Under the pieces are notes generated by a model. It saw only the letters and a program-made list of their open reading frames with translations, did no database searches and had not been told where the DNA came from. A stretch of DNA of 64,000 nt from contig NZ_FQUY01000008.1 of assembly GCF_900129195.1 (NCBI RefSeq), positions 1 to 64,000 of the forward strand, in the 5' to 3' direction. Below, one piece after another: positions 37,896 through 56,883 of this stretch. Position 1 is the first letter of the stretch. Every line of letters starts with the position of its first letter. The DNA comes from Desulforamulus putei DSM 12395. GTDB lineage: Bacteria > Bacillota > Desulfotomaculia > Desulfotomaculales > Desulfotomaculaceae. The translations under genes and the position numbers were made by a program.

Positions 37896-37970
37896 TGGAG
37901 GCGGCACCCAGATTTGAACTGGGGAATGGAGGATTTGCAGTCCTCTGCCTTACCACTTGGCTATGCCGCC
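37896..37970 (-). tRNA. tRNA-Cys (GCA)
   Basis: 75 nt, acceptor GGCGGCA/TGCCGCC, anticodon loop CTGCAAA (GCA), encoded CCA. The only intact tRNA-Cys in the window; a broken copy lies at 39740. Confidence 0.93.
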
Positions 37971-37980
37971 AGATATAAAA

Positions 37981-38055
37981 TGGAGCGGAAGACGGGATTC
38001 GAACCCGCGACCCTCGCCTTGGCAAGGCGATGCTCTACCACTGAGCCACTTCCGC
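37981..38055 (-). tRNA. tRNA-Gly (GCC), copy 2
   Basis: 75 nt, same sequence as 36725-36799, encoded CCA. Middle gene of the leftward cluster Phe-Gly-Cys. Confidence 0.93.
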
Positions 38056-38060
38056 TTAAA

Positions 38061-38136
<76 letters not shown>

Positions 38137-39796: not shown

Positions 39797-39869
39797 AAGA
39801 GGAAGACGGGATTCGAACCCGCGACCCTCGCCTTGGCAAGGCGATGCTCTACCACTGAGCCACTTCCGC
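39797..39869 (-). pseudogene. tRNA-Gly (GCC) with damaged 3' end, fused to tRNA-Cys remnant
   Basis: Identical to the intact tRNA-Gly copies from the 5' end through the T-arm, but the 3' acceptor strand reads CTTCCTC instead of CTTCCGC and TTTT replaces TCCA. This breaks pair 2-71 and removes the encoded CCA. It might still be charged poorly if CCA is added, but most likely it is a pseudogene made by the deletion that joined it to tRNA-Cys. Confidence 0.75.
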
Positions 39870-39887
39870 ACTTAATATTAAAGGATA

Positions 39888-39963
<76 letters not shown>

Positions 39964-39970
39964 AAATATG

Positions 39971-40047
39971 TGGCGGAGCTGACGGGAGTCGAACCCGCGA
40001 TCTCCTGCGTGACAGGCAGGCATGTTAGGCCTCTACACCACAGCTCC
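39971..40047 (-). tRNA. tRNA-Asp (GUC), copy 2
   Basis: 77 nt, identical to 36639-36715, encoded CCA. First gene of cluster 3. Confidence 0.93.
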
Positions 40048-42553: not shown

Positions 42554-43033
42554 TTGAAAACAATTACCGGTTTTTTCTCCTCCCGTGAACAGGCAGAAAA
42601 AGCCATAAGCGAATTGCGCCGCCAGGGATTTGATCGGGAAATTTCTGCGGTGGCCAGGGGCGAAGAAAAAAGGCCCGAAGACCCCATGATCACCAATTTC
42701 ACCGGTGGGGATGGCATAACTGACGGCGCCGCCGGGGGCGCTGCCATTGGTGGTCTGGCCGGTCTGGTTCTGGGCGCCGGGGCTCTGACCATTCCCGGTT
42801 TTGGTCCCCTGATCGCCGCAGGTCCTATCGCTGCCATGTTATCCGGCGCCGCAACGGGCGGTATTGTCGGGGGATTGGCCGATTATGGTATTCCTGCCGA
42901 AAAAGGTCGGGAATTTGAAGAACGCATTCGCCGCGGCAAAATGTTAGTGTCGGTAAAGGCGGATGACGGCAGGGCTGAACAAGCCGCCCGGGCCTTACGG
43001 CAGGCCGGCGGGGAAAACGTGGAAATTCACTGA
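42554..43033 (+). CDS. General stress protein 17M-like protein
   Basis: A 159-aa protein. The N-terminal alpha/beta part (TITGFFSSREQAEKAISELR) and C-terminal part (KMLVSVKADDGRAEQAARAL) resemble the YflT/GsP17M family. Between them is a Gly/Ala-rich hydrophobic hairpin (about 52-110) that could insert in a membrane as a glycine-zipper. TTG start at 42554 behind AGGAGGC. Family members are stress induced in Bacilli; a function is not established. Confidence 0.75.
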   Translation: MKTITGFFSSREQAEKAISELRRQGFDREISAVARGEEKRPEDPMITNFTGGDGITDGAAGGAAIGGLAGLVLGAGALTIPGFGPLIAAGPIAAMLSGAATGGIVGGLADYGIPAEKGREFEERIRRGKMLVSVKADDGRAEQAARALRQAGGENVEIH

Positions 43034-44072: not shown

Positions 44073-45650
44073 ATGCGCAACAAGCTTTATCAAATAGCGT
44101 TTCTGTTGTTATTTTTAAGCTTTTTTTCGGTGGTAATAAACCATAATAAAGGGTATCTGCCGGCTGCCAGTGAAAAAGGAGTTCCCAAGCAGATTGACCT
44201 TACTTATGCCGTGGCAGAGCCCGTAAAAAGCCTGGATCCCGCAGAGGCCAACAATTTGTCCGAAGCAAAGGTCCTGGCCAACATTTTTGAAGGCCTGGTC
44301 CGCTTTAAACCGGATTCAACCGAGATCGAACCCTGCCTGGCCACCGGCTGGGAGGTCTCGCCGGACGGCCGTCACTGGACCTTTCATTTAAGGCAGGGAG
44401 TGTATTTCCATGATTCTACCACCTTGAATGCCGAGGCTGTCAAGTTCTCGGTGGAAAGGCAGCTTCCCCCCCAAAAAAAGGATAATATGACCTATGGTAG
44501 CTTTGTCTTCGGCATGGTTGAATCAGTGGAAATAATTGATGATTATACCATTAAATTTAACTTACGCACACCCTATGCTCCTTTTCTAAGAAACCTGGCC
44601 ATGCCCTGGGCGGCCCCTGTTGTAAGTCCTGCGGCGGTGAAAAAGTTTGGTGGAGACTTCGCTAAAAATCCCGTTGGCACCGGTCCCTATGCCCTGGCTG
44701 ATTGGCGTGATGATACGCCGGTGCTGGTGGTCAACGGGCGCTACTGGGGCCGCAAGCCCAGGATTCAATCCATTGCCTTTGCCCCGGGCAGCGAAGAGCA
44801 GCGGCTAACCTCATTGAATTCCGGCGCATCAGGCATAGCGGACCTGGCAGCCCGGCAAAGGGAGAGCCTCAACAAAGAAAAAGCATCCATCCTTTGCCGT
44901 CCCGCGGCATCCCTTGGCTACCTGGGAATGTTTAACAACCGGCCGCCTTTTAATAATCCCAGAGTGCGGCGGGCTGTTTGTATGGCCGTTGACAGAAAAG
45001 CCATTGCCGAGGAGCTGTTCGGCGATCCCTCCCTGGCAGCCAACAGTATTCTGCCACCGACATTACTGGGCTATAATAAGGAACTTGCGCCTTACTCCGG
45101 CAGCGCTCAAATGGCCAGGAGTCTTTTAAAAACCTGTGGCTACCCGGACGGCCTCAATATCACACTGATCACTTATCATTCCGCAAGACCCTACAACCCT
45201 GTGGGAGGAACGGAACTGGCTGCCGTCATTAAAAAACAGCTGGCTGAGGCCAACATCCGGGTAACGGTGAAATCCTATCCCTGGCATGAATTTAAATCCG
45301 CCCTGCGGAGACAGGAAGGGGACGCCTTTTTATTCGGCTGGGTGGGGGACAACCTGGACCCGGACAACTTTTTATATACCCTGTTGGCCTCGGATGCCAT
45401 TCCTCAAACCAATCTGTCCTATTATAAAAACAGCGAAGTGGACCGCCTGATCAGCGCTGCCCAACAGGAGCACGATGAAAAAATCAGACAAAGATTATAT
45501 TATCACGCCCAGCAGATCGTGCTGCAGGAGACTCCGCTGGTTTTTCTGAACTACGGCCAGGATTGTCTGGGTGTGGTCAAAAATCTTAAGGGAGTTGAAT
45601 TAAATCCTTTCGGCATTCCGTTGTTTATTGATGCTTATATTAAAAACTAA
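44073..45650 (+). CDS. Oligopeptide-type ABC transporter substrate-binding protein
   Basis: A 525-aa SBP family 5 (DppA/OppA) protein. A signal peptide or anchor (YQIAFLLLFLSFFSVVI) lacks a lipobox Cys. Motifs include AEPVKSLDPAEANNLSEAKV, GLVRFKPDSTEIEPCLA and WTFHLRQGVYFHD. The ATG at 44073 with GGGGG eight bases before it is chosen over 44004. No permease or ATPase genes are near, so it is an orphan binding protein of unknown ligand (peptide, nickel or other). Confidence 0.87.
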   Translation: MRNKLYQIAFLLLFLSFFSVVINHNKGYLPAASEKGVPKQIDLTYAVAEPVKSLDPAEANNLSEAKVLANIFEGLVRFKPDSTEIEPCLATGWEVSPDGRHWTFHLRQGVYFHDSTTLNAEAVKFSVERQLPPQKKDNMTYGSFVFGMVESVEIIDDYTIKFNLRTPYAPFLRNLAMPWAAPVVSPAAVKKFGGDFAKNPVGTGPYALADWRDDTPVLVVNGRYWGRKPRIQSIAFAPGSEEQRLTSLNSGASGIADLAARQRESLNKEKASILCRPAASLGYLGMFNNRPPFNNPRVRRAVCMAVDRKAIAEELFGDPSLAANSILPPTLLGYNKELAPYSGSAQMARSLLKTCGYPDGLNITLITYHSARPYNPVGGTELAAVIKKQLAEANIRVTVKSYPWHEFKSALRRQEGDAFLFGWVGDNLDPDNFLYTLLASDAIPQTNLSYYKNSEVDRLISAAQQEHDEKIRQRLYYHAQQIVLQETPLVFLNYGQDCLGVVKNLKGVELNPFGIPLFIDAYIKN

Positions 45651-45673
45651 TGTATATGTTTTAATCTTTGGAA

Positions 45674-45709
45674 AAGAATATTCCTAGGCTTTAGCCTGGA
45701 ATATTTCTT
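45674..45709 (+). terminator. Hairpin between SBP and prion-like gene
   Basis: AAGAATATTCC-AGGC (from 45674) pairs with GCCT-GGAATATTTCTT (to 45709) with small bulges. No T-run after it; it may partly end the SBP transcript or lie in the leader of the next gene. Confidence 0.5.
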
Positions 45710-45724
45710 ACAGGAGGTCATGCT

Positions 45725-46402
45725 ATGAACCAAAGTATTATGCAGCTCCAACAAAAGATTAATCACCTGCGCAATGACATCAATCAAATCGAACAAATTT
45801 GTAGCCGGCTGCAGCAGCAGGAACAACAAAACAGCCAGCAGCTGCAGCAAATAGCCCAGCGCGAGGCCAATGCCGTCCAGCAACTGCAGCAGGTCACTCA
45901 GACTGCCCGGCACATGAGTCAGGAAGTAAGCCAGGTAGCCGGCGCGCAGAGCTATCAGCCCTATCAGTTCAGCCAATATACCGCCCAGTATCCCGGCCAG
46001 GGACAGTTCAGCCAGGGCCAGCAGTTTAGCGGCTTTGGTAATCAAAGCCAGCAATTTGGCCAATCCGGCAGTTACTCAGGGGCTTTTATGGCATATAACC
46101 AGCAGGGTTTCGGGCAGGCCGGCAGCAACCAGGGTACTATCATGAGCGCTTCCTCCAATCCACAGGCACTTGGCAGTGTTGGCAGCACAAGTCAATATGC
46201 CGGCGGCCAAAGTCAATTTGGATTTGGCCAACAACAGTCCGAACAAAACTTCCAAAATCTTGGCACCTATGGCCTCAGCTCTGCACAGGCCAGTTACCTG
46301 AGCGGGCAATCGGGGTCCTTTGGAGGGCAATCTGCTCATCCCTTCAGCCAGTATAATCAACAACAGTACCAGCCAAACCAGTTTTCGTCCTACCAGTCTT
46401 AA
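45725..46402 (+). CDS. Gln-rich protein with coiled coil and prion-like tail
   Basis: A 225-aa protein behind a perfect AGGAGG. Residues 1-75 form a Gln-rich coiled coil (MNQSIMQLQQKINHLRNDIN, then heptads of L/I and Q). Residues 76-225 are almost free of charge and made of Gln, Ser, Gly, Tyr, Phe, Asn and Ala, with repeated 'GQ-F', 'SQ-YxQ' and 'QFGQ' units. This matches prion-like, phase-separating domains. No signal peptide or membrane segment is seen. The sequence recalls small Gln-rich spore-coat or coat-surface proteins of clostridia, so a spore role is possible. I know no named family. Confidence 0.8.
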   Translation: MNQSIMQLQQKINHLRNDINQIEQICSRLQQQEQQNSQQLQQIAQREANAVQQLQQVTQTARHMSQEVSQVAGAQSYQPYQFSQYTAQYPGQGQFSQGQQFSGFGNQSQQFGQSGSYSGAFMAYNQQGFGQAGSNQGTIMSASSNPQALGSVGSTSQYAGGQSQFGFGQQQSEQNFQNLGTYGLSSAQASYLSGQSGSFGGQSAHPFSQYNQQQYQPNQFSSYQS

Positions 46403-46417
46403 TCAATCCCTTGGCAG

Positions 46418-46450
46418 AGGGCCTTGTTACAGGCCCTTTCTTCTTTTTTC
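46418..46450 (+). terminator. Terminator of the Gln-rich gene
   Basis: AGGGCCT (46418-46424) with AGGCCCT (46431-46437), followed by TTCTTCTTTTTTC. Confidence 0.8.
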
Positions 46451-46580
46451 TATAGGTGAAGCCCGGTCCCTTTTACAAAGTCAGGAATGATTAGACAATT
46501 TATACCCCTTAACAGAAATTACGTAACAGAAGTATAATAATCATACATATTACGGAAAGTATTTACAGGGGGTGTAAATT

Positions 46581-46820
46581 TTGGCAAAAGTGCTAAAGGA
46601 AGGCGCCGCTTACAATCAGCGGGACGTGATTGATATGCTGGTAGAGTTCTCGGCCTTTAAAGACAGGGTAGAAAAAAAATTCAAAGAGGTGGCCAGAGAA
46701 TTAGAGGGCAAAGCCAACGAGCACGACCTCTGGGTAAGCCTGTACCTGATTTCCAGCGATTATGCCGATGAGCAGTCTTCCCGCCGCAAGGTTGTGGACC
46801 CGATCCAAAAAATTTCATAA
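46581..46820 (+). CDS. Small hypothetical protein (79 aa)
   Basis: TTG start at 46581 behind GGGGGTG. Soluble, helical and charged: YNQRDVIDMLVEFSAFKDRV then VEKKFKEVARELEG. No family recognised. It has its own terminator and is convergent with the PcsB-like gene. The even codon use and good ribosome site support a real gene. Confidence 0.65.
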   Translation: MAKVLKEGAAYNQRDVIDMLVEFSAFKDRVEKKFKEVARELEGKANEHDLWVSLYLISSDYADEQSSRRKVVDPIQKIS

Positions 46821-46825
46821 TGAAA

Positions 46826-46858
46826 CAACCCCTGCCTTACCACCAGGCAGGGTTATTT
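46826..46858. terminator. Terminator between convergent genes
   Basis: AACCCCTGCCT (46827-46837) pairs with AGGCAGGGTT (46845-46854) with one bulge, followed by ATTTTA on the plus strand. Confidence 0.7.
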
Positions 46859-47949
46859 TATGCCGGAACAAGTTCAAAGACAGCTTTGCCTTCCTCGATT
46901 TGAATATCCTGCAAACGCCAGCCCATTAACAGGCCAACCGGGTAGGTCAACCCTTCTTTACCGGCGATCAGGTCAATCAGTTCCTTATCGAAAGCAATGT
47001 CTCCCACTTGGATCGATTTAATTTTATAACAAACATTTTCACCGGCCACGGCAAGTTCCCCGGCAATGGCAAACGGCATTTGCTCCTGGTTGGTTCCTTT
47101 AATAATCAATAAATGATTGGATAAGCAGGCCTCAACCGGGTGCTTTAAACTGATTCCGCTAAAAAGCAGTTTTGATAAGGTATGCTCACTGTATTCGGCC
47201 TTAACCCCGGCGCCCAGCCAGTGCAGGCGGTCCGGGCGGTATTTGTCCCAGGGGGCGTCTTTAAACCTGCTCAGCAGGGTTTCCAGGGGCCTGAGGATCT
47301 CGTGCAAACCGTCTACCACCGTTAACACTTTGCCCTGGTTCTCCCCCAGCTCCTGTCTGATGGTTGCCAAAAGTCGCTGCTTGGTTGACTGGAGTAATTT
47401 TGTTTGCTCTAACGCCCTGGCCAGCTCCCTTTGCCGGGCCACCAGTTGCTTTTCCAATCTATCAAGTTCCGCCGCCCGTTGTTTAACCTCCTCCACTGCC
47501 GCCAGGGTTTTATTTAAATCCGCCACCCCCCGGGACACCAGCACCCCCACCAGGGCCAGCCTGTTTAAAAAATCTCCCAGGTTAACGGCTCCTAAAAGTA
47601 TCATTACATAATGGGTACGGCCTTCCATATAAAAATGCCTTAGCCACAGGCTCAATCTCTGACGGCAATGCTGCAAGTTCTCTTTTGCACCGGCAAGCTG
47701 TTCCCTGGCCACTGGTATGTTTGATCTGGTTTGAGAAAGATCGGCCTGAATTCGAGCGGATTCCCCGCTCATTCGGTCAAGGGCCAATTCTGCCTTTACC
47801 AGCTCGGCCACAATCTGTTGTTCCCTTTGTTTTAAAAACCGGTGCTGCTTTAAAACCTCACCGGTGTCAGCCGAGGCCAGGGGTAGATAAAAGGACTGCC
47901 ATAACAGAACCGGAATAAAAAGAAAAATAATCCACCTGCGAAGCTTCAT
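46858..47949 (-). CDS. Exported coiled-coil protein (PcsB/CwlO N-domain-like)
   Basis: A 363-aa protein with a signal peptide cut near PLASADTG. Residues 30-230 are a long antiparallel-type coiled coil (EQQIVAELVKAELALDRM ... LEKQLVARQRELARALEQ) with a central SLWLRHFYMEGRTHYVMILLG, the segment typical of the PcsB/CwlO family N-domain that contacts FtsEX. The usual C-terminal NlpC or CHAP hydrolase domain is absent. A different C-terminal domain of about 120 aa (beta-rich, unknown) takes its place. It may be a regulator or scaffold of wall hydrolysis rather than an enzyme. Confidence 0.7.
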   Translation of the reverse strand: MKLRRWIIFLFIPVLLWQSFYLPLASADTGEVLKQHRFLKQREQQIVAELVKAELALDRMSGESARIQADLSQTRSNIPVAREQLAGAKENLQHCRQRLSLWLRHFYMEGRTHYVMILLGAVNLGDFLNRLALVGVLVSRGVADLNKTLAAVEEVKQRAAELDRLEKQLVARQRELARALEQTKLLQSTKQRLLATIRQELGENQGKVLTVVDGLHEILRPLETLLSRFKDAPWDKYRPDRLHWLGAGVKAEYSEHTLSKLLFSGISLKHPVEACLSNHLLIIKGTNQEQMPFAIAGELAVAGENVCYKIKSIQVGDIAFDKELIDLIAGKEGLTYPVGLLMGWRLQDIQIEEGKAVFELVPA

Positions 47950-56619: not shown

Positions 56620-56883
56620 ATGACAAGCCGTAATACGAACCAACCTGTTACCCCCGGTGCCAGCAGCGCTCTGGATCAAATGAAGTATGAAATCGCCAGC
56701 GAACTTGGTCTTACCAACTATCAACAAATGGACAAAGGTTCTCTGCCCAGCCGCGTAAACGGTTATGTCGGTGGTAACATGACCAAGAAACTGGTTGCCT
56801 ATGCTGAGCAAGCTCTGGCCAGTGGTAACACCGCACAAATTCTTCAGTCTGCTCCTACCGAGCAAATCGGTCAAAGATCCTAA
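56620..56883 (+). CDS. Alpha/beta-type small acid-soluble spore protein
   Basis: An 87-aa SASP that coats and protects spore DNA. Both family signatures are present: LDQMKYEIASELG (containing the germination protease site YEIA/SELG) and GSLPSRVNGYVGGNMTKKLV. ATG at 56620 behind AAGGAGGG. Confirms that the organism makes endospores. A sigma-G-type promoter lies upstream and two hairpins downstream. Confidence 0.95.
   Translation: MTSRNTNQPVTPGASSALDQMKYEIASELGLTNYQQMDKGSLPSRVNGYVGGNMTKKLVAYAEQALASGNTAQILQSAPTEQIGQRS

Follow-up and report, generated by a model that had tools for sequence, protein, structure and literature searches.

The gamma-type SASP of Bacilli (SspE, PF04259) is a Gln/Asn-rich, low-complexity protein whose gene is under sigma-G control in the forespore. 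SASPs carry a GPR protease site, and the gamma type is thought to be degraded at germination. The FUS/FET low-complexity domains and the yeast prion domains are built of Q, G, S and Y with spaced aromatic residues and near-zero charge. According to PMC3533761, SspE is missing from clostridial genomes. GerG of Clostridioides difficile is described as a low-complexity spore protein that forms a gel in vitro; it is under the control of the mother-cell factor sigma-E, and its gel-forming repeats are dispensable for its role (PMC5241399). Prion-like composition has also been reported for a domain of clostridial Rho and in bacterial surveys (PMC4703818, PMC4606120), and these two papers do not mention Desulfotomaculum or Pelotomaculum.

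Here we describe a Gln-rich protein of 225 aa, hereafter the Q protein, encoded in a stretch of 64,000 nucleotides from Desulforamulus putei (the window). Its tail resembles the FUS/FET and yeast prion domains in composition, but unlike FUS/FET the Q protein is bacterial and has no nucleic-acid-binding domain. The Rho and survey cases share its prion-like composition and differ in being Asn-rich domains appended to known proteins (PMC4703818, PMC4606120). GerG, by its description a spore protein, is alike in its low complexity and uncharged amide-rich repeats and in being foreign to general families, yet it is Asn/Met-rich, sigma-E controlled and restricted to C. difficile (PMC5241399). The Q family resembles the gamma-type SASP in its Gln-rich, low-complexity composition and in a SASP-like promoter pattern; unlike it, the family has a long helical head, an aromatic-rich tail and almost no lysine, and it lacks a PF04259 match above the cut-off or a GPR-like site. 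We searched the 113 genomes of the order with PF04259 and found no match above the cut-off (4 weak matches, E 0.18-0.82; the Bacillus subtilis control was positive). After this search we rejected homology to the gamma-type SASP, which had been considered on account of a short likeness. The GPR-like site, written as the pattern E[FILVY][AS]x[ED], was found in 0 of 66 family proteins.

Membership in a solved or curated family was likewise considered, and rejected on the Pfam and NCBIfam searches. The window Q protein had nothing above the curated cut-offs in either database, nor had ten homologues from outside the order, and a Pfam search with 56 family members returned only weak coiled-coil matches among the matches listed. 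We found no description of the family in the open-access literature, and the papers searched there yielded no spore proteome from the order.

Architecture and conservation of the Q protein

The Q gene (45725..46402, + strand) starts with ATG, is preceded by an RBS, AGGAGG, at 45712..45717 (+), has orthologues and is under purifying selection; it is a real gene. The head (residues 1-74; 45725..45946, +) is a single Gln-rich helix and a probable coiled coil, as judged by AlphaFold2 and the head alignment. The tail (residues 79-225; 45959..46399, +) is predicted to be disordered and is uncharged and rich in Q, S, G, Y and F. AlphaFold2, run with 56 sequences, gave one helix, residues 2-74, with ten-residue means of 90-98 through residue 70, and 134 of the 225 residues, nearly the whole tail, had pLDDT below 50. 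By composition count, residues 1-78 contain 32% Q, and the 147-residue tail contains 24% Q, 18% S, 16% G and 16% Y+F, with one charged residue and neither K nor C. Composition and model thus confirm the Gln-rich helix and uncharged low-complexity tail read from the sequence in the initial annotation. The unusual composition claimed there also stands out within the window: with a maximum of 32 Q+N per 80 residues the Q protein is the sole ORF with at least 25 among the 62 ORFs of 150 aa or more. It also has the longest stretch free of charged residues, 105 compared with 56 in the runner-up. Prion-like domains are characterised by at least 30 Q+N in 80 residues, a density found in the window protein and in 40 of the 66 family members; we use the term prion-like for composition only. 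The inspected sequences start with Met-Asp-Gln or similar and have no hydrophobic segment, so secretion is not suggested.

A profile of the head matched 105 of the 113 genomes of the order, usually once per genome, and 77 of the 80 good genomes, which extends the gene far past one strain. All nine genomes of the genus had a match, the source genome included, and a tenth genome of the taxonomic family (70% complete) had none. We also collected 71 loci by searching with an alignment of the 79-aa neighbour described below, and 67 of them matched the head profile, among them those of Desulforamulus aeronauticus (L043) and D. aquiferis (L045), whose Q proteins are the same, residue for residue, as those of the genus members G001 and G002, respectively. 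In L072 the Q gene lies about 3 kb away, and in L112 it is an interrupted copy. L052 runs out at a contig edge, and the head profile found no Q gene within the locus DNA of L059, L066 and L090. A scan of the genome contigs with the single Q protein sequence gave no match because the tail sequence changes too fast.

The head is under purifying selection: two pairs gave a dN/dS of 0.04 and 0.03, and a third, whose members are nearly identical, gave 0. For these three pairs the alignable part of the tail gave 0.17-0.18; two further pairs were saturated. The tail evolves fast yet stays nearly uncharged and lysine-poor. The 66 family proteins (127-290 aa) contain 41 lysines in 14,912 residues, and 34 of them have none at all. 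Their tails are free of cysteine and hold 283 charged residues among 9,764, with 0-16 in a tail and a median of 3. In one locus (L042, 1889-2836, -) the tail carries about nine tandem ten-residue LSTPNQFGTS-like units, an instance of tail growth by repeats.

Regarding homologues beyond the order, a sample of 398 genomes of the phylum contained 91 with a match to the head profile, and 76 of the 91 lie outside the order. We took 48 regions from 46 of these 76 genomes, mostly the stronger matches. The Q-rich head was present in 48/48, and the part after the head had at most 12% charged residues in 43/48, the other five having charged repeats. As the head profile is itself Gln-rich, weaker matches outside the order may be convergent coiled coils. 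At least three of the homologues (L255, L282, L300) are permuted, with the low-complexity part first and the Q-rich helix last, and close to the C terminus the members of one out-of-order clade (L262, L264, L274, L279, L283, L289) share a conserved F/YNTNxDL-like motif.

Gene neighbourhood and the 79-aa gene

The Q gene belongs to a block common in the order, which consists of speB-speE-pdaD (reverse), a DUF1269-like gene (forward), an nfo-like gene (reverse), SBP5, Q and the 79-aa gene. Searching the 71 loci by tblastn, some of them too short to span the whole block, we recovered speB in 45, speE and pdaD in 51 each, the DUF1269-like gene in 51, the nfo-like gene in 48 and SBP5 in 55. SBP5, a family-5 extracellular solute-binding protein (PF00496; 44004..45650, +), is the conserved upstream neighbour; of 62 loci, 52 have a relative no more than 2.5 kb upstream of Q. 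A terminator-like scan placed a hairpin between SBP5 and Q (45684..45699, +) and a terminator after Q (46416..46439, +). No RNA element reached the Rfam gathering scores in 45000-47400. The DUF1269/YflT-like gene of the window (42554-43033, +) stays below the Pfam cut-offs. At many loci its orthologues have GTATA-N16/18 and a CATnnTAA-like box with forespore-like spacing, and it is possibly a second forespore gene. Elsewhere in the window, two tRNA clusters on the reverse strand (37896-38136 and 39798-40047) resemble each other, with Gly-GCC and Phe-GAA genes common to both.

The 79-aa gene (46581..46820, +) occurs in 103 of the 113 genomes of the order, and Q lies directly upstream of it on the same strand in 65 of the 71 loci, at a gap of 100-823 nt (100-250 nt in 62 of the 65). 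Its product is predicted to form a two-helix hairpin (AlphaFold2 helices 13-41 and 47-71, mean pLDDT 78.9) and contains the invariant motifs FSxFKDRV and NEHxLW. We considered it as a possible member of a solved or curated family and rejected this, since homology searches gave no family and no PDB match. In two genomes the 79-aa gene is broken or partial beside an intact Q head (G029, C1:2093622; G039, C36:1188-1363). In the window the 79-aa gene is preceded by a sigma-A-like promoter (TTAACA-N18-TATAAT, 46509..46538, +) with 11 of 12 consensus bases; across 57 non-redundant loci, at least 9/12 bases were found in 55 and at least 10/12 in 53. In 32 of the 57 loci the TTAACA box is itself preceded, at a distance of 8-16 nt, by an AGACA element (in the window around 46480-46538), possibly a regulator site.

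This neighbour suggests an explanation in which the Q protein is a vegetative or stress-induced cytoplasmic condensate scaffold partnered by the 79-aa protein. The 79-aa gene is conserved alongside Q, with both genes in 102 genomes of the order, neither in 7 and only one in 4 (109/113 concordant), and its sigma-A-like promoter would fit such a role. The Q gene itself, however, ends in its own terminator in the window, 46 of 66 family members have a terminator-like hairpin at most 110 nt past the stop, and a sigma-A promoter with at least 10/12 bases was found in none of 50 Q upstreams. Moreover, we noticed by eye no 79-aa-like ORF beside the Q homologues in nine out-of-order loci with neighbouring ORFs. 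We consider the vegetative scaffold improbable.

Promoter patterns and the link to sporulation

A de novo fit to the regions upstream of the Q genes, which included the three wrong starts named below, returned CCACTAATA, a spacer of 16-17 nt and then [AG][CA]ATA[AC]TA. In the SASP genes of the order, a NATA box and CATA[AC]TA stand at a spacing similar to that of the Q upstreams. A two-box pattern was composed after inspecting the Q upstreams; of 50 that are non-redundant, 36 carry it (for shuffles the mean was 1.0 and the maximum 4), as do 15 of 25 SASP upstreams. Its occurrence in the control sets was 0/27 for spoIIID, 0/21 for spoIVA, 1/57 for the 79-aa gene, 0/48 for SBP5, 0/38 for speB, 0/38 for speE, 0/34 for pdaD, 1/41 for the DUF1269-like gene and 3/28 for the nfo-like gene. 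Once fixed, the pattern was applied to 48 homologues from outside the order and occurred in 17 (for shuffles the mean was 0.5 and the maximum 4). By eye, the spoIVA upstreams showed no clear common motif.

Promoter models trained on SASP genes only gave the Q upstreams z 6.7 (first model, which used three wrong Q starts, L093, L098 and L099) and z 8.7 (second model). The second model gave z 8.4 on 43 out-of-order homologues and, among the controls, 1.8 for the 79-aa gene, 0.3 for SBP5, 0.7 for spoIIID, -0.2 for the nfo-like gene and 2.7 for pdaD. The DUF1269-like gene reached z 10.3; either this gene, too, is expressed in the forespore or the SASP-trained model is less specific. Above the 99th percentile of shuffles lay only 8 of 50 Q regions, compared with 22 of 25 SASP regions. 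These patterns support a forespore-type promoter for the Q family. The sigma-F and sigma-G boxes of C. difficile are described as alike (PMC3789822), so the claim is limited to forespore-type and does not single out sigma-G.

Coat genes depend on the mother-cell factors sigma-E or sigma-K, and Gln/Tyr/Gly-rich low-complexity sequences are frequent in coat proteins. The initial annotation had suggested a coat or matrix component, and the Q protein could accordingly be made in the mother cell for the matrix of the coat or exosporium, with the Gln-rich tail serving for cross-linking or assembly. The gel-forming, low-complexity GerG under mother-cell sigma-E is a precedent for this (PMC5241399). 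The promoter evidence points away from it, as the Q upstreams resemble those of SASP genes (sigma-G, forespore). A sigma-E model trained on spoIIID gave them z 0.9 (21.7 on its own training set) and a sigma-E-like pattern occurred in 0/51, both obtained with the three wrong starts named above; the same starts entered an earlier form of the two-box pattern, narrower in spacing and then widened, which was found in 10/51 Q and 0/26 SASP upstreams. The sigma-K consensus was found in 0/50 Q upstreams, a weak result since it is 0 in nearly all other sets and has no working positive control. In addition, as the family is nearly lysine-free, a transglutaminase would have few partners for self-cross-linking. 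On this evidence we regard the coat or exosporium role as unlikely.

The link to spore formation, also proposed in the initial annotation, is supported both by the SASP-like family promoters and by co-occurrence with SpoIVA. Of the 80 good genomes, 78 have SpoIVA, and 77 of these also have Q, the exception being G084; Q is missing from both genomes that lack SpoIVA (G063, G068). By our arithmetic, the chance of both SpoIVA-less genomes falling among three Q-less ones is about 0.001; with sizes of only 1.6 and 1.2 Mb, however, these two may have undergone extensive gene loss. The less complete genomes include five with Q and no SpoIVA match and three with SpoIVA and no Q. SpoIVA is so widespread in the order (104 of the 113 genomes) that the test is low in power.

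Regarding the window's own gene, the situation was less clear. An alignment of the genus revealed a candidate promoter of the form GTAT-N18-AAGAATAT at 45652..45681 (+), and eight of the nine genus genomes carry G[TCA]AT-N18-AA[AG]AATAT upstream of Q; this form was defined after the alignment had been viewed and serves as a lead rather than as a test. The eight SASP regions checked in the genus all have GTAT-N18-CATA[AC]TA, and compared with them the spacing of the genus Q promoter is equal and its -10 box has diverged. The two-box pattern is absent from the window Q upstream, as it misses the diverged genus form. In the SASP model the window region scored -0.9, no better than shuffles (mean -0.67). 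A forespore promoter is only suggested for this copy. An alpha/beta-type SASP gene lies 10 kb downstream of Q in the window (56620-56883, +), with GTAT-N18-CATACTA upstream.

A possible role in the spore core

The best reading of the comparison with Bacilli is that the Q protein may be an analogue, not a homologue, of the gamma-type SASP. We tentatively propose, at somewhat less than an even chance, that the Q gene encodes a cytoplasmic product of the forespore, made from a sigma-G-type (or sigma-F-type) promoter, which forms a coiled-coil-assembled condensate or gel, or a bulk filler, of the spore core. The gene would be switched on in the forespore during sporulation, and the Gln-rich helices would self-associate as a coiled coil. 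The coiled-coil heads would then gather the uncharged, aromatic-spaced tails in the spore core, where these would form a densely packed condensate or gel or be no more than bulk glutamine-rich filler. Such a role would resemble that of the gamma-type SASP of Bacilli.

An alternative role would be a plain amino-acid store, broken down at germination, with a tail that has no assembly function. The tail is Gln-rich and fast-changing, the promoter is SASP-like and the gamma-type SASP is missing from the order, all of which would suit a store. The family proteins lack the GPR-like site, however, and the conserved helical head (dN/dS 0.03-0.04) together with the regular spacing of the aromatic residues suggests a role beyond storage. 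We therefore judge a mere store to be quite unlikely. The proposed core condensate, gel or filler also has a bolder form, which we find doubtful: a phylum-wide, undescribed, nearly lysine-free FUS-like family whose forespore condensate or gel, held by the coiled-coil heads, helps to set the glass-like dormancy of the core in place of the gamma-type SASP, which would make a conserved prion-like protein an integral part of endospore development.

To our knowledge, prion-like sequences of the FUS type are rare in bacteria and are usually strain-specific or attached to known proteins. Here such a sequence is conserved throughout a spore-forming order; its gene has a defined architecture, and the promoter pattern of the family points to the forespore. 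The family bears on whether bacteria use condensates or gels within the spore core and, as clostridia are without the gamma-type SASP (PMC3533761), on what takes its place there. If the Q protein assembles, it would offer a simple bacterial model of a tail whose sequence changes fast while its composition is kept.
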